64,000 bases of DNA from Paenibacillus sacheonensis. Lineage in GTDB: Bacteria; Bacillota; Bacilli; Paenibacillales; Paenibacillaceae. Where the stretch lies: assembly GCF_009909195.1 (NCBI RefSeq), contig NZ_JAAAMU010000003.1, positions 1 through 64,000 on the forward strand, written 5' to 3'. Of the stretch, positions 41,432 through 50,159 are shown piece by piece. Every line of letters starts with the position of its first letter. Within the stretch, counting starts at the first letter, position 1. The notes under the pieces were generated by a model. That model was not told the origin of the DNA, searched no databases, and saw only the letters and a list, made by a program, of their open reading frames with translations. The position numbers and the translations under genes were made by a program.

Positions 41432-42604
41432 ATGCGCATGGAATTCGGGCTTTCGGAGGAGCAATCGATGATCCGGGACATGGCGGCGCGGTATGCGGAG
41501 CAGGAGGCCGCACGCAGGGCCGGACCATTAGACGAGTCGGAAACGTTCGACAAGGAATCGTTCGGCGAACTGGCGGAGCTGGGCTTTACGGCGCTGCCGT
41601 GGCCGGAGGAGGACGGCGGAGCCGGCGGCGGCTTCATTGGCTTCGCGCTGGTGCTGCAGGAGCTGTCGCGGGCGAACGCCTCGCTTGCCGCGGCGTTATG
41701 GGCCCATGTGTATCTGGCCGCTTGGCCGCTCATGCGGTACGGAGGCGAAGAAGCGATTCGGCGATACGGGGATCCGCTGCTTACGGGGAGCATGCTTGGC
41801 GGCGGCGTCCTGCCGGGAGCAGCCGGCAGCGCTTCACGGCTTCGGGTAGGTTTGACGGCAGCGCGGGACGGATCCGATTACGTGCTGGAAGGGCAGCAGA
41901 AATACGTACTGGGCGGCTCGCAGGCGGATCTCTTCGTCGTCTACGCGGAGACGGGCGGGGAGAAGAGGCGAAGCGGCGGCCGCAAACGGTACAGCGCCTT
42001 CATCGTCGGCAAAGACTGCCTGGGGCTCGACATTCAGCCCGTGACGAAGAAGCTGGGCCTGCGTGCCGCGGGCATGGCGCATCTGACGTTCAAGGGCTGC
42101 CGCGTGCCGGAGGGCTGCCGGCTCGGCCGCGAAGGTCAGGGAAGCCTGCTTGCGCGCGAAGCCGCGGCTGGCGTGCGCTGCGGATTGGCGGCCATCGCCG
42201 CAGGCATCGCGCGGGGAGCCGCGGATGCGGCGCTGGGGTACGCGCGGACCCGGACGCAGTTCGGCAGGCCGATCGCGAAGCATCAGGCGATCGCGAGCAT
42301 CCTCGCGGACTTGGATACCGGCGCGGACGCCGCGCAGCTGCTCGTACGCCAGGCGGCATGGCGCGCGGATGAGGGGCTGGAGGATGAAGGAGCGGCGGGT
42401 CTGGCGCTGCGGTTTGCGGCCGACGCGGCGATGTCGGGCAGCATTCAAGCCGTGCAGGTTTATGGAGGTTACGGCTACATGAAGGAATATCCCGTCGAAC
42501 GTTACATGCGGGATGCGAAGGCGGTGCAAATGTTCAAAGGGCTCGACGGGCCCGATCTCATGCCGCCGCAGCGGCGGGCGGGGAAGGGAAAAGAACGTGT
42601 CTGA
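41432..42604 (+). CDS. Acyl-CoA dehydrogenase-like protein lacking the catalytic Glu
   Basis: A 390-residue protein of the acyl-CoA dehydrogenase fold, start ATG 41432 behind GGAAGGGGGCG. It keeps the middle beta domain and the FAD-binding segment RTRTQFGRPIAKHQAI (~270-285) and QVYGGYGYMKEYPVERYMRDAK. The C-terminal catalytic stretch, normally xxYEGTxEI, reads QMFKGLDGPDL, so the Glu is Lys. The usual FALTEPxAGSD stretch is GGVLPGAAGSASRL. The alternative Glu position used by isovaleryl-CoA dehydrogenases is also not acidic (GVRCGLAA). It may be a modified or inactive dehydrogenase. It starts the operon and overlaps the thiolase gene by eight bases. Confidence 0.85.
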   Translation: MRMEFGLSEEQSMIRDMAARYAEQEAARRAGPLDESETFDKESFGELAELGFTALPWPEEDGGAGGGFIGFALVLQELSRANASLAAALWAHVYLAAWPLMRYGGEEAIRRYGDPLLTGSMLGGGVLPGAAGSASRLRVGLTAARDGSDYVLEGQQKYVLGGSQADLFVVYAETGGEKRRSGGRKRYSAFIVGKDCLGLDIQPVTKKLGLRAAGMAHLTFKGCRVPEGCRLGREGQGSLLAREAAAGVRCGLAAIAAGIARGAADAALGYARTRTQFGRPIAKHQAIASILADLDTGADAAQLLVRQAAWRADEGLEDEGAAGLALRFAADAAMSGSIQAVQVYGGYGYMKEYPVERYMRDAKAVQMFKGLDGPDLMPPQRRAGKGKERV

Positions 42605-43886
42605 GACGGTTATCATCGGCAGCGCGCGCACGCCTTTCGGCAAATTCGGCGGCGCTCTGAAAGGGAGAACGGCGGCGGAGCTTGGCGGCATTGCCCTGCA
42701 GGGCGCGCTGCAGCGGAGCGGATTGGCATCCTCTTCGGTCGACGAAGTGATCATGGGCATGGCGATCCAAGCAGGAGCGGGGCAAAATCCGGCGCGCCAA
42801 GCGGCCTTGCATGCCGGATTCGGCGCCGAGATACCGGCGGAGACCGTGAACAAGGTCTGCGCTTCCGGCTTGCGGAGCATCACCATGGGGGCCCAGATCA
42901 TCGCGGCGGGAGATGCGGAGATTATCGCGGCCGGCGGCATGGAAAGCATGAGCGGCGTACCCCATGCCCTGCGGGACTACCGCTTCGGCCGGCGCATGGG
43001 GGATGGCGCCGCCGCGGACCTGATGCTGGGAGACGGGCTGCGCTGCGCGGCCGGGGGCGGGCATATGGGCGATTATGCCGACAGCCTCGCGGCTTCATAC
43101 GGCATCTCCCGCACGGAGCAGGACGAGTGGGCGCTGCGCAGTCACGAACGAGCGGTACAGGGCATTTTGCATCGTATCTTCGAGACGGAGATCGTACCGG
43201 TACCGCTCGCGGACGGGACGCCAGCCGCCAGTCACGTCTTCGCCGTCGATACCGACGAACCGCCGCGCGGCGACACGAGCATGGAGAAGCTTGCCGCCTT
43301 GCGGCCGATTTTCAACGCGGGGGGAGCCGCCGCTGGCGCAGTCTCCATCTCGGGTGCGGGCTCTGGTGCAGGTTCGAGCCCGGGTGCAGGCGCCTTCGCA
43401 GAATCGGGCGCGGGCAGAGGCACGATTACGGCGGGCAACGCGCCGGGGGTGAACGATGGGGCCGCGGCCGTCATCGTCGCCTCGCAGGCGCGCGCGCTGC
43501 GCGAAGGATGGGCGCCGCTCGCGACGATCATCGGGCATGCGGCGATCAGCGTAGAGCCGCATCTGTACCCGATCGCGCCGGCGCTGGCCGTGCAGAAGCT
43601 GCTCCGGCGTGAGGGGCTTCAGCTCGATGCGGTAGACCGCATCGAGCTGAACGAAGCGTTCGCCGCCGTCGTGCTGGCCTGCGGCAAGCTCCTCGGCTGG
43701 GATGCCGACAAGGTGAACGTGCACGGCGGCGCCATCGCGCTCGGGCATCCCGTCGGGGCAAGCGGGGCGCGGATCGTCGTCACGCTGATCAATGGACTTC
43801 GGCGGCGCGGCGGCGGTCTCGGCATAGCCGCGATCTGCAGCGGCGGCGGTCAGGGAGATGCGCTGCTCATCAAGGTCGAAGGTTAG
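42597..43886 (+). CDS. mmgA: Acetyl-CoA acetyltransferase (thiolase) with low-complexity insertion
   Basis: A 429-residue thiolase. The start is GTG 42597 (GGGGAAGGG about 8 bases upstream), inside the end of the preceding gene. Catalytic residues are present: Cys88 in [18 protein letters not shown], His in [16 protein letters not shown] and Cys in CSGGGQGDA. It condenses or cleaves acetoacetyl-CoA-type thioesters. Residues ~243-275 are an Ala/Gly/Ser-rich insertion between FNAGG and TITAGN; typical thiolases are ~393 residues and lack it. The gene corresponds to the first gene of the Bacillus mmg operon. Confidence 0.93.
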
Positions 43887-43973
43887 CGGCGAGAAGCACG
43901 GGATGAACGAGCGCAGACTGCCGGCTGGCGGATCTCATGGTTATGCATCCACAATTCCCGGAAAGGAGCTGGC

Positions 43974-44843
43974 ATGGTGACGATTCAGAACGTATCCGTA
44001 GTCGGAGCGGGGCAGATGGGCAGAGGAATCACGCAGGTCGCGGCGCTGGCAGGCTGCCGGGTACTGCTTCACGATACCGACGACGCTCGAGTCTCCGCGG
44101 CGCTCGAGGCGATCGGCAGCGCGCTGGCATCCGGCGCCTCCAAAGGTCGCATCTCCCCGGAAGAGGCGGCGATGGCGCTTGCGCGCATCGTCCCCTGCGG
44201 CAATTTGAGCGCGGCGGCCGAGGTCGAGCTGGTCATCGAAGCGGCGACGGAGAACATGGCGGTGAAGAAGAAGATTTTCAACAATCTGGACGGGATCTGC
44301 GGGAGACGGACCATCCTGGCCAGCAACACGTCTTCGCTGTCCTTGACGGAGCTGGCGGCGGCGACCCGGCGGCCGGAACGGGTGATCGGCATGCATTTTA
44401 TGAACCCCGTGCCGGTTATGAAGCTGGTCGAAATCATCCGCGGGCTGCGAACGAGCGACGAGACGTACGCGGAGACGGCGGCTCTCGTGGCGAGGATGGG
44501 CAAGACCGCGCTGGAGGTGCGGGATTTTCCGGGCTTCGTGAGCAATCGGGTGCTGATGCCGATGATCAACGAGGCCATCTATGCGGTGTACGAGGGCGTG
44601 GCGTCCGCCGAGACGGTGGACGGCATCATGAAGCTGGGCATGAACCATCCGATGGGGCCGCTCGCGCTGGCCGATCTGATCGGGCTGGATACGTGTCTGG
44701 CCGTCATGGAGACGCTGCACGAGGGGTTCGGCGATTCCAAATACAGGCCATGTCCCTTGCTGCGAAGCTACGTCCACGCAGGCTGGTTGGGTCGCAAGAG
44801 CGGCCGAGGGTTTCACGGCTATGACGATGCGGAGGGGAGCTGA
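43974..44843 (+). CDS. mmgB: 3-hydroxybutyryl-CoA dehydrogenase
   Basis: A 289-residue protein, start ATG 43974 with GAAAGGAG five bases upstream. It has the NAD-binding Rossmann loop VSVVGAGQMGRGI, the substrate-binding ILASNTSSLSL and the catalytic His in GMHFMNPVPVMKLVE, and MGPLALADLIGLDTCL in the C-terminal domain. It interconverts 3-hydroxyacyl-CoA and 3-ketoacyl-CoA. No low-complexity insertion is visible, unlike the genes on either side. The next gene starts eight bases after its stop. Confidence 0.95.
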   Translation: MVTIQNVSVVGAGQMGRGITQVAALAGCRVLLHDTDDARVSAALEAIGSALASGASKGRISPEEAAMALARIVPCGNLSAAAEVELVIEAATENMAVKKKIFNNLDGICGRRTILASNTSSLSLTELAAATRRPERVIGMHFMNPVPVMKLVEIIRGLRTSDETYAETAALVARMGKTALEVRDFPGFVSNRVLMPMINEAIYAVYEGVASAETVDGIMKLGMNHPMGPLALADLIGLDTCLAVMETLHEGFGDSKYRPCPLLRSYVHAGWLGRKSGRGFHGYDDAEGS

Positions 44844-44850
44844 ACTCCCA

Positions 44851-46017
44851 ATGAGGTTTCGGTTTTCGCAAGAACAGGAGGCGCTGCGGGAGCGGGTGAG
44901 GACGTTTGCACGGGCCGAAGTGGCGCCGGCGGTAATAGGAATGGAAGAGAACGATGCTTTTCCGCGCGAGCTGGTGAAGAAAATGGGGCGCGAGGGCTTG
45001 CTCGGCCTGCCGATCGCGGCCGAATGGGGCGGGAGCGGCTGCGACATGGTTTCCTACATGCTGGCAATCGAGGAGATCTCTCGTGTCAGCGCTGCCGCGG
45101 GGGTTATTCTGGCGGTGCATACGTCCGTCGGCACGCTGCCGATCGTCTACCATGGAACGTCCGGGCAGCAAAGCCGCTGCTTGCCGCGGTTAGCCTCGGG
45201 CGCTTGGCTGGGGGCGTTTGCGCTGACGGAACCGCATGCCGGCTCGGATGCATCGGCCATCCGGACAATCGCCCTTCGCAGGGAGGGCGGTTATGCGCTG
45301 TCGGGCACCAAGGTGTTTATCACCAACGCGGGCGAGGCGGACCAGTACGTGTTGTTCGCCGTCGTGCAGGACGATGCGGCGCAGACGAAGACAGGGAGCT
45401 CCAGTACCGGCGGCAGCGCCGGCGGAGGCATCACGGCTTTCCTGGTGAGCAAAGACACCCCGGGATTCACCGTAGGCCGCAAGGAGAAGAAAATGGGGCT
45501 GCGCGGCTCCAATACCTGCGAACTCATACTGGAGAACGTTCAGGTACCGGCGTCGCAGCGGCTAGGCGCGGAGGGGCAGGGCTTCCGCATTGCCAAATCG
45601 GCGCTGAGCGGGGGCCGCATCGGCATCGGCGCGCAGGCGCTCGGCATCGCGCGCGCGGCGCTGGCGCTGGCGGAACGCGAGCTGCCGCAGGTGCCGCGGC
45701 GCCAGCGGGCCAGAGCCGATGCGGAGCTGCTCGACCTGGCCGCTGCGACGGAGGCCGCCGCGCTGCTCGTCTACCGCGCGGCGGAGCTGCTGCAGCGCGG
45801 GCGTCCCTGCACGAAGGAGGCGTCCATGGCGAAAATGTTCGCCAGCGACACGGCCGTTCGCGTGGCGACGCGGGCACTGCAGTGGTGCGGTCCGGAAGGA
45901 CTGACGGAGGAGCACGCGGCGGAGCGTTACTTCCGCGATGCGAAGGTTACGCAGATTTACGAAGGGACCAACGAGATTCACCGAATCGTGATCTCGGGCG
46001 AGCTGCTGAAAGGATAA
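44851..46017 (+). CDS. mmgC: Acyl-CoA dehydrogenase
   Basis: A 388-residue acyl-CoA dehydrogenase with start ATG 44851 behind GGAGGGGAGC. The catalytic Glu is present (QIYEGTNEIHRIV), as are FALTEPHAGSDAS and GGRIGIGAQALGIARAAL. Two deviations: a Gly/Ser-rich stretch (KTGSSSTGGSAGGG) lies at ~180-193, and the RxQFGxPIxxFQ flavin segment is replaced by a short unrelated stretch (ERELPQVPRRQRARADAELL). The final GGYGYxxEY region is WCGPEGLTEEH. It is in-frame throughout, so expression is expected. Confidence 0.9.
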   Translation: MRFRFSQEQEALRERVRTFARAEVAPAVIGMEENDAFPRELVKKMGREGLLGLPIAAEWGGSGCDMVSYMLAIEEISRVSAAAGVILAVHTSVGTLPIVYHGTSGQQSRCLPRLASGAWLGAFALTEPHAGSDASAIRTIALRREGGYALSGTKVFITNAGEADQYVLFAVVQDDAAQTKTGSSSTGGSAGGGITAFLVSKDTPGFTVGRKEKKMGLRGSNTCELILENVQVPASQRLGAEGQGFRIAKSALSGGRIGIGAQALGIARAALALAERELPQVPRRQRARADAELLDLAAATEAAALLVYRAAELLQRGRPCTKEASMAKMFASDTAVRVATRALQWCGPEGLTEEHAAERYFRDAKVTQIYEGTNEIHRIVISGELLKG

Positions 46018-46044
46018 CGCCATCATTGGAAAGGAGGGATTGCG

Positions 46045-47118
46045 ATGGACGGAAGCGGTGGGAACGGTTATCGCTGCGACGTTGACAAAGGGACTGATTT
46101 TGGCGCCGGAGGTAATGGCGGCGTTGAAGGTGCGCTCGGCGAGGGCACTAGCGGAAGCGGGGTTAGCGGCAGCACCTCTATTGGCGCCAACGGCGCCGCG
46201 GGCGAGCACCGGCGCGGCGGCGGTAACCGAGCTTCCCCCGGCAAGCGCTTCAGGGAAGCAATTCGGCAAGAGAGGCCGCTGCAAATCGCGGGCGCCGTCA
46301 ATGCGTACGCCGCGATGCTGGCGCAGGCGACCGGATTCCGCGCGCTGTACGTCTCCGGCGCCGGCGTGGCCAACGCGTCCTTCGGACTGCCGGACCTTGG
46401 CATCACGACGCTGAACGACGTCGCGGAGGACGTGCGGCGCATCGCGGGCGCGGTGAATCTCCCCATCCTGGCGGACGCGGATACGGGCTTCGGATCCGCG
46501 TTCAACATCGCGCGTACGGTACGCGAGATGATCCGGGCGGGCGCCGCGGGCATTCATATCGAGGACCAAGTCGCCGCGAAGCGGTGCGGCCACCGGCCGA
46601 ACAAGGCGATCGTGCCGCAGGGCGAGATGGAGGACCGAATCGCCAGCGCGGCGGACGCGAGGCACGACGAGCATTTCGTGCTGATGGCCCGGACGGATGC
46701 GCTGGCTTCGGAAGGCATGGAGGGAGCGATCGCGCGCGCGCTGGCTTACGTGGACGCGGGGGCGGATATGATTTTCCTGGAAGCGGCGACCACGCTCGAG
46801 GAGTACCGGACGTTCACGGCCCGGGTGAAGGTACCGGTGCTCGCGAACGTGACGGAGTTCGGACGCACGCCGCTTATGACCGCGGAGGAGCTGGGCGGAG
46901 CGGGAGTGGCCATGGTGCTGTATCCGTTGTCGGCATTCCGGGCGATGAACGCCGCCGCGCTGCAGGTGTACCGGACGATTCGGGGGAAGGGAACCCAGGC
47001 GGACGCCGTTCATCTGATGCAGACGAGGGAGGACCTGTACGGGTATTTGGACTACTACGCTTACGAGCGCAAGCTGGATGCGCTGTTCGATGCAGGGAGG
47101 AAGCCGGAGGAGGGATGA
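46045..47118 (+). CDS. prpB: Methylisocitrate lyase with glycine-rich N-terminal extension
   Basis: A 357-residue enzyme of the isocitrate lyase/PEP mutase family. Residues ~67-357 are a complete Prp[19 protein letters not shown], metal-binding LADADTGFG, and the catalytic KRCGHR (normally KKCGHR). It splits methylisocitrate to pyruvate and succinate. The first ~65 residues are a Gly/Ala/Ser-rich extension not found in typical ~300-residue PrpB. Support for this start is the strong AAGGAGGG seven bases before ATG 46045. The next gene starts after three bases. Confidence 0.92.
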
Positions 47119-47121
47119 AGG

Positions 47122-48684
47122 ATGGCGGCGAAGAAGCCAGGAGGGCTGGCCGGGGTCGAGGCAGGCACGACGGCGATCAGCACGGTGGGAAAAGACGGCT
47201 GCGGGCTGACGTACCGCGGATATGCGATCGAGGATTTGGCGGAGCACGGCAGCTTCGAGGAAACGGCGTACCTGCTCATACGCGGCAAGCTGCCGAACGT
47301 CGACGAGCTGACGGATTACAGGCGCAAGCTGGAGGCCGCAAGCCGGCTGCCGGCAGCGCTGCAGCGGATCTTGGAGCTGCTGCCGGCGGACGCGCATCCG
47401 ATGGAGGTGCTGCAGGCCGGCTGCGTCGCGCTCGGGACGCTGGAGCCCGAGCTCCCGGAGCGGCCGGCGGCCGATCTGGCGGACCGGCTCATCGCGTTGA
47501 CGGGGCCGATGCTGCTGCATTGGTACCATTATCACCGGCGGGGCGATGAGGACGACAGCCCCGTCAGCATCGCAGGCATCGGCAATGGGCAGACGCCGGA
47601 TCGGTCCGCCGATATCCGGAGGCCGCAATTCAGCGCGGATACGGATGACGGTCTGCCCGAGTCCGTCGGGCCGGAGGCAGACGGGGCAGCGTCCGATGAG
47701 CGAAGATCGGCCTCGGGCCGGGCCACGGTCAGCGGCCGGCAGCTCGCCCGCGAACCGAAAAGGGGGCGCGGCGATTCGGCGCCTGCCCGGAATGCGCCCC
47801 CCGTCGTGACCGGGGGTCCGCAGCCCGGGAGCGATTCGACGGCCGGATCCGCCCCGGGCAGCGCCGGGCGCGCGGCCCAAAGCATCCCCGCGTCTGGCGG
47901 CGGCGCTGCTCCGAGCAGTCCTGCTCCAAACGCCGCTCTAAGCCCTGCACCAAGCCCCGCGCCGGGCAGCCCGCAGTTTGCGGACATCGCAGCCGATGCT
48001 GCCGACGAGGACTATACCGTCGCAGGCCATTTTCTCTACCTGCTGCACGGCAAGCACGCCGCTATCCGGCACCGGCGCGTGTTCGACATCTCGCTCACGC
48101 TGTACGCGGAGCACGAGTTCAATGCATCCACCTTCGCCGCCCGCGTCACGGCGTCTACGCTGTCGAATTTCCATGCCTGCATCGCGACGGGCATCGGCAC
48201 GCTGCGCGGCAACCTGCACGGCGGAGCGAACGAAGCCGTCATGGAGCTGATCGAGCGATTCGGGACGCCGGAGGAAGCGGCAGAGGCCACGCGCGCTCGA
48301 CTGGCGGAGAAGCAGCTGATCATGGGCTTCGGCCATCGGGTGTACAGCGTGTCCGATCCGCGCTCCGACATTATCAAGAAATGGTCCGAGACGTTGTCGT
48401 ACTGGTCGGAGGACGGTTACTTGTACCCGGTCTCGGAGGCGGTCGAAGCCGTCATGCGGGAGGAGAAGGCCTTATTCCCGAATCTAGACTTCTACAGCGC
48501 GACGGCCTATCATTTCATGGGCATTCCGACCGCCATGTTCACGCCGATCTTCGTCATCGCGAGGCTGGCCGGCTGGACCGCCCATATTATAGAGCAGCGG
48601 AGGAACAATCGCATTATCCGGCCGTCGGCCGCCTACGACGGACCGGAGGTGCAGCCGTGGCTGGAGCTGCATGCCAGGCGTTAG
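47122..48684 (+). CDS. mmgD: 2-methylcitrate/citrate synthase with ~150-residue low-complexity insertion
   Basis: A 520-residue protein, while such synthases are usually ~370. Residues 1-141 are a normal N-terminal part (GLTYRGYAIEDLAEHGSFEE; LLHWYHYHRRG). Residues ~142-294 are an Ala/Gly/Ser/Pro/Arg-rich segment without secondary-structure pattern. The core resumes at DEDYTVAGHFLYLLHG, with catalytic His in NLHGGANEAV, His in FGHRVY and the Asp in LDFYSA. It condenses propionyl-CoA (or acetyl-CoA) with oxaloacetate. All catalytic segments are intact and in frame, so the insertion does not look like decay. Confidence 0.92.
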   Translation: MAAKKPGGLAGVEAGTTAISTVGKDGCGLTYRGYAIEDLAEHGSFEETAYLLIRGKLPNVDELTDYRRKLEAASRLPAALQRILELLPADAHPMEVLQAGCVALGTLEPELPERPAADLADRLIALTGPMLLHWYHYHRRGDEDDSPVSIAGIGNGQTPDRSADIRRPQFSADTDDGLPESVGPEADGAASDERRSASGRATVSGRQLAREPKRGRGDSAPARNAPPVVTGGPQPGSDSTAGSAPGSAGRAAQSIPASGGGAAPSSPAPNAALSPAPSPAPGSPQFADIAADAADEDYTVAGHFLYLLHGKHAAIRHRRVFDISLTLYAEHEFNASTFAARVTASTLSNFHACIATGIGTLRGNLHGGANEAVMELIERFGTPEEAAEATRARLAEKQLIMGFGHRVYSVSDPRSDIIKKWSETLSYWSEDGYLYPVSEAVEAVMREEKALFPNLDFYSATAYHFMGIPTAMFTPIFVIARLAGWTAHIIEQRRNNRIIRPSAAYDGPEVQPWLELHARR

Positions 48685-48713
48685 AACGACTAACGAGAGC
48701 GAGGTGATGGAGC

Positions 48714-50159
48714 GTGTCGCAAGCGCATGAACCGAACGTAAGACCCGAGCCGGATCAACTGCTCGTCGACATCGCCGATTATGCGGCGAATTACCGCATC
48801 CGGAGCGAGACGGCGTACGAGACGGCCCGTTATTGTTTGATGGATACGCTGGGCTGCGGCATTCTGGCCTTGAAATACCCGGCCTGCACGAAGCTGCTCG
48901 GACCCGTCGTTCCGGGAGCGGACCTGCCCGGAGGCGTCCGAATTCCCGGAACGTCCTACGAGCTTGATCCCGTGACGGCGGCGTTCAACATTGGGTGCAT
49001 GATTCGCTGGCTGGACTTCAACGATACGTGGCTGGCGGCGGAATGGGGTCATCCATCCGATAATCTCGGCGCGATCCTGTCCGCGGCCGACTATGTCAGC
49101 AGACGGAACGACGCCGCCGGCAAGCAGCCGCTCACGATGCGCGACGTGCTGACGGCCATGATCAAGGCGCATGAGATTCAGGGCGTCCTGGCGCTCGGAA
49201 ACAGCTTCAACCGCGTCGGGCTCGATCACGTCATTCTCGTCAAGGTCGCGTCGACGGCCGTCGCCGCAGGCCTGCTAGGCGGAACGAAGGACGATATCGT
49301 CAACGCGCTCTCGCATGCTTGGCTCGACGGCCATCCGCTGCGCGTTTATCGGCACGCGCCCAACACGGGCTCGCGCAAATCCTGGGCCGCGGGCGACGCG
49401 GCAGGCCGGGCCATCCAGCTGTCCTTCCTCACGCTGCGCGGCGAGATGGGCTATCCGTCCGCGGTAACGGCCAAAGGCTGGGGCTTCAGCGACGCGCTGT
49501 TCCGAGGCAAGCCCATCGCCCTCGAACGGCCCCTCGGCTCCTACGTCATGGAAAATGTCCTGTTCAAGGTCGCCTACCCGGCCGAGTTTCACGCCCAAAC
49601 GGCGGTCGAAAGCGCCGTCCGGCTTCATCCGGTCGTGTCGGGAAGGCTGGACGATATTGCCCGAATCGTCATCTCGACGCATGAATCGGCGATCCGCATC
49701 ATCGACAAGACCGGTCCGCTTCACAATCCGGCCGATCGCGATCACTGCCTCCAGTATATGACTGCGGTCGGGCTGCTCCACGGCAATCTGACGGCGGACC
49801 ATTACGAGGAGAACGCGGCGGCGGACCCCCGTATCGACAGGCTGCGCGGGCTGATGAAGGTGACGGAGAACGCGCAGTTCTCGCGCGATTACTTCGATCC
49901 GGATAAGCGGTCCATCGCGAATGGCGTCCAGGTGTTCTTCCGCGACGGCAGCATGACGGAGCAGGAGGTCACGGAGTATCCCATCGGCCATCGCCGCAGG
50001 CGGGAAGAAGGCATTCCGCTGCTGCTGCAGAAATTCGAAGCGAACCTGGCGACCCATTACAAGAGCGAGCGGGTGCAGCGGCTCGTTCAGCTGTGCGGCA
50101 ACCCGCAGGAGCTGGAAACGATGGCCGTCCATCGCTTCATGGACCTGCTCGCGAACTAG
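48714..50159 (+). CDS. mmgE: 2-methylcitrate dehydratase
   Basis: A 481-residue MmgE/PrpD protein, start GTG 48714 behind GAGGTGATGG. The N-terminal helical domain includes [12 protein letters not shown] and the active-site region [10 protein letters not shown], and [14 protein letters not shown]. The lid domain begins near 270. It dehydrates 2-methylcitrate to 2-methylaconitate. It ends the operon, with a terminator 17 bases on. Confidence 0.95.

Follow-up and report, generated by a model that had tools for sequence, protein, structure and literature searches.

Complementary motif loss in two acyl-CoA dehydrogenases of a Paenibacillus methylcitrate operon suggests an obligate heteromeric enzyme

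In a 64,000-nucleotide stretch of the Paenibacillus sacheonensis genome (hereafter the window), a single operon encodes two acyl-CoA dehydrogenases (ACADs), ACAD1 and ACAD2. We consider it very probable that these proteins together make up an obligate heteromeric ACAD, with ACAD2 as its alpha and ACAD1 as its beta subunit, most likely assembled as alpha2beta2 with two flavins. Probably neither protein works alone, and the mixed pair would be needed. The partition of the motifs between the two proteins, its conservation in relatives, the linkage of the genes in operons and the selection acting on both were read directly from the sequences. On the basis of the operon content, the substrate would be a short or branched acyl-CoA, the breakdown of which ends in propionyl-CoA and so leads into the methylcitrate cycle.

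Gene layout and partition of the motifs

The source genome has a size of 7.4 Mb, and positions 41432-50159 of the window read as a single operon, in which ACAD1, thiolase, 3-hydroxybutyryl-CoA dehydrogenase (HBD), ACAD2 (MmgC), PrpB, methylcitrate synthase and PrpD follow one another:

41438..42604, forward strand: ACAD1, putative beta subunit, 388 aa, without catalytic Glu or flavin and substrate motifs of its own (Pfam ACAD domains; tree clade)
42597..43886, forward strand: thiolase, MmgA-like (NCBIfam TIGR01930, above cut-off)
43974..44843, forward strand: HBD, MmgB-like (NCBIfam NF004474, above cut-off)
44851..46017, forward strand: ACAD2, putative alpha subunit and MmgC orthologue, 388 aa (Pfam ACAD N, M and C domains; 5lnx nearest; MmgC clade)
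46045..47118, forward strand: methylisocitrate lyase PrpB (NCBIfam TIGR02317 and NF008455, above cut-off)
47122..48684, forward strand: 2-methylcitrate/citrate synthase, MmgD-like (NCBIfam TIGR01800, above cut-off)
48714..50159, forward strand: 2-methylcitrate dehydratase PrpD (NCBIfam TIGR02330, above cut-off)

With the GTG start chosen for the thiolase, its gene overlaps the end of the beta gene, stop included, by 8 bases. ACAD1 and MmgC are co-oriented, and in most of the operons fetched they flank thiolase and HBD. Besides alpha and beta, the source genome gave just three further matches to alpha at E 0.001, namely one long ACAD in two pieces (37 and 39% identity) and one protein with 25% identity, which suggests that the genome has no ACAD of this type apart from the pair.

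Low-complexity inserts or extensions rich in Gly, Ala, Ser and Pro occur in several enzymes of the operon: the thiolase (43300-43430), MmgC (45385-45429), the N-terminus of PrpB (46045-46225) and methylcitrate synthase, which has a large one (about 47550-48000). The latter enzyme is 520 aa long and its family match is split into two stretches. At the MmgC insert site, a longer insert is seen in relative G007 and inferred, from a split match, in G014.

The motifs of the two ACADs, located by alignment, are the following:

41810..41836, forward strand: beta, LPGAAGSAS at the LTEPxAGSD site
41900..41914, forward strand: beta, KYVLG at the xFITN site
42251..42274, forward strand: beta, RTQFGRPI, intact; short strands follow helix 235-271 in the predicted model
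42455..42478, forward strand: beta, QVYGGYGY, intact
42533..42544, forward strand: beta, FKGL at the YEGT site, with Lys367 in the column of the catalytic Glu
45223..45249, forward strand: alpha, LTEPHAGSD, own flavin site, intact
45316..45327, forward strand: alpha, FITN, own flavin site, intact
45649..45744, forward strand: alpha, decayed segment at the RxQFGxPI site, residues 267-298 of 388 (also by six-frame check and predicted model)
45880..45903, forward strand: alpha, QWCGPEGL, a degraded QxxGGxGY, the second element that reaches the neighbour
45958..45975, forward strand: alpha, YEGTNE with the catalytic Glu371, intact

The decayed alpha segment reads ARAALALAERELPQVPRRQRARADAELLDLAA. 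At this place canonical relatives have ...YAKxRxQFGxPIxxxQAIxFKLADM..., and alpha is 5 residues shorter. The initial annotation had claimed that the second dehydrogenase lacks RxQFGxPI and keeps the catalytic Glu of YEGT, and that the first one shows the complementary loss. Each of these claims held. In particular, the absence of RxQFGxPI from alpha is not a misreading, because RxQFG is found in no frame of 45600-45820 when all six are considered; a frame error was rejected for this reason and because the relatives agree, their MmgC proteins likewise lacking RQF when ACAD1 is present. The division goes further than had been claimed, since alpha has also degraded its QxxGGxGY, and beta has also lost TEPxAGSD and ITN. 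Alpha has the clade membership and the operon placement of a canonical MmgC and lacks the RxQFG and QxxGGxGY of a self-sufficient homotetramer. In beta, R272, Q274 and F275 of the first retained element and Q340, G343, G344, G346 and Y347 of the second are invariant in the 34 rows aligned (29 beta and 5 canonical).

Single-chain models gave the ACAD fold for both proteins, with a mean pLDDT of 87.3 for alpha and 88.8 for beta. The beta model has short strands after helix G (residues 235-271) and a break at 342-344, which in the alpha model are replaced by longer helices: a helix-turn-helix made of helix 244-280, a short turn and helix 283-315, and an unbroken helix 321-351. MmgC of Bacillus subtilis (5lnx) was both the best Foldseek match of alpha and its nearest solved sequence (53-54% identity, TM 0.84-0.87 over eight chains). 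In a second structure comparison it reached Z 50.6 (2.0 A over 356 residues), tied with butyryl-CoA dehydrogenases. ChsE4-ChsE5 was not among the structure matches listed (best 50 or 60 each), which excludes nothing.

In homotetrameric ACADs, as MCAD structures show, RxQFG and QxxGG of one subunit extend to the FAD bound by its neighbour. The partition was quantified on 108 of the rows used for the tree (58 canonical, 25 alpha and 25 beta), over the 107 columns that are at least 95% conserved in the 58 canonical ACADs, a column being counted as kept at 0.8 or more. Of these columns, 37 are kept in both groups and 2 are lost in both; alpha alone has lost 14 and beta alone 31, the other 23 being intermediate. 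Thirteen of the 14 alpha-only losses fall in reference positions 270-294 and 342-349, the remaining one being E63; from the MCAD structures, we take these two patches to be the ones that extend to the neighbour's FAD. R274, Q276, F277, G278 and Q342 stand at 1.00 in the 25 beta rows. The beta losses include E133 (0.08), D139 (0.04), I163, T164 (0.00), R249 (0.40), Y368, E369 (0.04) and N372, among which are, presumably, on the same structural grounds, the flavin, substrate and base residues of beta's own pocket.

Canonical ACADs have an invariant Glu at reference position 63 (window 45019-45021, Ala57 in alpha), which 0.96 of the beta rows retain and 24 of the 25 alpha rows have lost. It may cooperate with the lost bracing elements.

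The complex, its stoichiometry and a contact of the retained beta elements with the FAD of alpha would fit together as follows. Alpha would bind the isoalloxazine ring and the acyl-CoA and supply Glu371 as base; in the alpha-beta dimer, RTQFGRPI and QVYGGYGY of beta would cross the interface and hold the ADP half of the alpha FAD. The flavin pocket of beta would be dead, and with it the second site of each dimer. The bracing elements of alpha may have decayed because, with this pocket dead, there would be nothing left for them to hold. If this is correct, neither protein is a complete dehydrogenase alone, despite the domain matches.

Conservation across MmgC operons and alternative explanations

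The sample consisted of relatives of the window together with 80 named loci (the best 80 of 585 confirmed matches), so that the counts given here are not prevalences. After removal of 21 duplicates from 134 MmgC operons, 113 distinct ones remained; L068, L105-L110 and second copies within a locus were left out. MmgC lacks RQF in all 54 operons that contain ACAD1, the window included, and retains it in 56 of the 59 that do not; these 59 include L200, where the ACAD sequence is limited to a truncated fragment at the end of a contig. In 52 of the 54, again with the window included, ACAD1 bears RQF and lacks the Glu, and the operon has a single Glu-bearing subunit; in the other two (L085 and L175), the catalytic column of beta does hold a Glu, but the motif around it is absent. 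Two ACAD genes per operon, complementary retention of motifs and one Glu subunit are what would be expected of a heteromer.

Three operons without ACAD1 have an RQF-less MmgC. In L053 and L083 the contig stops at the thiolase or inside it, and for this reason an ACAD1 would not be visible; in fact, the L053 genome has a cut ACAD1 at the end of another contig (L068). The true exception is L187, from Paenibacillus radicibacter, where the RQF-less MmgC is preceded, 5.5 kb upstream in the same operon, by an intact ACAD. By reading of the open reading frames, thiolase, HBD and three putative parts of a branched-chain 2-oxoacid dehydrogenase lie between the two, a gene content that hints at branched-chain acyl-CoA substrates. 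The decayed MmgC, the intact ACAD and the branched-chain 2-oxoacid dehydrogenase-like genes span L187:285-8158.

The loss of RQF in alpha is complete. The loss of the second element is less clean, since Q and both G are retained in 7 alpha rows (L052, L056, L058, L060 and L124-L126); its Tyr pair stands at 0.00 and 0.08 in alpha. Small changes in a retained element occur in two beta rows, with QIFGAYGY in L061 and RKQFS in L084.

The gene arrangement also varies. In L124, L125 and L126 (P. ehimensis/elgii group) HBD is not between thiolase and MmgC, and their MmgC has QLxGGSGW and IYEGTNQ. In L065:4499-7786 and in L162 (P. phyllosphaerae), the interval from ACAD1 to HBD showed no thiolase.

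A class-wide search with beta at E 1e-60 matched 225 of 398 genomes, with identities of 42-47% among the matches listed, the window aside. Ten loci were fetched, one of them the window, and the six placed in the tree all have canonical motifs; the matches were read at the fetched loci only, and this result does not establish that beta is absent outside Paenibacillus.

Alpha might instead be a homo-oligomeric dehydrogenase that holds its FAD by other contacts, and beta an independent pseudoenzyme that acts, for instance, as a regulator or as a partner for flavin or ETF. This would agree with the motifs that alpha retains in its own pocket and with alpha-specific conserved residues such as a His at reference position 375 (25 of 25 rows). 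However, it leaves unexplained both the retention in beta of exactly the elements that alpha has lost, invariant in the 25 rows, and the presence of RQF wherever MmgC stands without beta, with the few exceptions described above. We regard this explanation as unlikely.

Some ACADs, such as isovaleryl-CoA dehydrogenase, carry the catalytic base on another helix, and beta could be an independent dehydrogenase whose base is placed in this way; the Glu found in the usual column of 2 of the 54 beta proteins goes in this direction. An alternative base was looked for at the aligned positions and none was found: positions 247 and 248 are free of both Glu and Asp in all 25 beta rows, two rows have Asp at 249, and position 246, with 6 Asp and 1 Glu in beta, is also Asp in 45 of the 58 canonical ACADs. 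Considering also the near-complete loss in beta of E133 and D139 (TEPxAGSD) and of T164 (ITN), a self-sufficient beta is very improbable.

The dN/dS values, 0.05-0.21 for alpha and 0.08-0.22 for beta in 14 pairs, with synonymous change near saturation in several of them (pS up to 0.66), indicate purifying selection on both genes. That one or both genes are decaying and functionless, as the losses in each protein of residues invariant in canonical ACADs and the longer beta branches could suggest, is hardly credible, given that dN/dS stays well below 1 for either gene in every one of the 14 pairs, which led us to reject pseudogenes, that there are no internal stops in the matched frames among the matches listed, and that many columns are invariant within each group.

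The heteromer is thus the reading that we retain, and the possibility of a hetero-oligomer with shared active sites, raised in the initial annotation, gains support from the comparative evidence: complementary columns, a shared operon, selection, and RQF kept by MmgC where the partner is missing. The correlation of alpha and beta distances, given the other operon genes, does not add to this evidence, being no stronger (partial r 0.22) than that of PrpB and beta (0.22) or of HBD and beta (0.20); this test is not specific to the alpha-beta pair.

Phylogeny and possible intermediates

A tree was built from 117 rows picked by hand from the loci fetched, after removal of the trait columns, with a quick search and midpoint rooting. 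Alpha forms one clade (25 rows, SH-aLRT 99) inside MmgC. Beta also forms one clade (25 rows, SH-aLRT 100), which attaches near acadX and not within MmgC; this placement is less sure, because of the quick search, the long beta branches and the midpoint root. The same nine rows are split from the same sixteen in both alpha and beta, the sixteen-row side being weak in beta (51). Since each of the two traits, that of alpha and that of beta, had a single origin in the main clade, the species counts given above do not represent independent events.

In another genus of the same family (g12), four loci contain ACAD pairs in which one copy is decayed or decaying and the other has the motifs (L105:4185-6497, L106:4010-9876, L107:3992-7469 and L108:4066-6499). 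The decayed copy has lost RxQFG and GGxGY and retains the Glu; the motif-bearing copy of L105 has D in place of E in LTEP. That this is a second, separate case of decay is well supported by the tree, and the process is perhaps still ongoing. The MmgC of L187 is placed outside alpha by the tree, and an AU test does not reject its joining alpha (p 0.2); it may represent a third decay event. In L187 and in g12 the decayed copies sit beside a Glu-bearing ACAD, so that decay does not need a Glu-less partner. The fact that these partners still have the Glu suggests that the loss of the bracing elements comes first.

The sequences and the tree point to an origin of the alpha/beta pair in Bacillota separate from that of the steroid degraders. 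We lean towards the view that obligate two-subunit ACADs have evolved in Bacillota more than once and independently of the steroid-degrader lineage, with living intermediates, the g12 pairs and P. radicibacter, in which a decayed catalytic subunit has a Glu-bearing partner. If this is true, the order of the steps from homomer to obligate heteromer becomes testable, and the intact, half-decayed and obligate pairs would make up a natural series for its study.

Comparison with known ACAD systems

MmgC of B. subtilis (5lnx) is orthologous to alpha but retains RxQFGRP and GGYGY, and the 15-kb neighbourhoods of mmgC in five Bacillus (L167, L169, L171, L176 and L185) showed no further ACAD. In Brevibacillus, Aneurinibacillus, Thermoactinomycetaceae and others, the MmgC operon has a second, intact ACAD, acadX, which belongs to the tree region where beta attaches; unlike beta, acadX has intact motifs, and its place is downstream of mmgC instead of upstream of the thiolase. 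Pimeloyl-CoA dehydrogenase, with large and small subunits (NCBIfam TIGR03204 and TIGR03203; PimC/PimD), is by its name a two-subunit ACAD too, and our proteins score far below the cut-offs of these families (alpha 70.7 of 623.85 and 47.5 of 652.7 bits, beta 85.8 of 652.7). Among the literature matches listed, no title, abstract opening or passage mentioned a heteromeric ACAD in Paenibacillus or Bacillota.

The closest parallel is with the alpha2beta2 ACADs of steroid degradation, a group made of ChsE4-ChsE5, ChsE1-ChsE2, IpdE1-IpdE2 and Scd1AB, with the fused CasC. Passages of two papers describe ChsE4-ChsE5 and ChsE1-ChsE2 as alpha2beta2 (PMC11153573, PMC8399759), with an alpha subunit that carries the Glu and binds both isoalloxazine and substrate, and a beta subunit that meets the ADP-ribose of FAD (PMC11153573). 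As in these enzymes, according to the same passages, there are two ACADs per gene cluster, one being the Glu, isoalloxazine and substrate subunit and the other serving the ADP-ribose side, here as judged by sequence motifs, the steroid side of the comparison being taken from the published descriptions. In contrast to the steroid ACADs, the Paenibacillus pair has a Bacillota host and a methylcitrate/beta-oxidation operon, its genes are separated by thiolase and HBD, alpha belongs to the MmgC clade, and beta scores 39.6 and 62.1 bits against the IpdE2 family NF050027, the cut-off of which is 450. The heteromeric architecture has thus already been described in steroid degraders, and the pair reported here would be a variant of it in Bacillota; if so, the ACAD with a composite active site extends from steroid catabolism to the short-chain metabolism of Paenibacillus.
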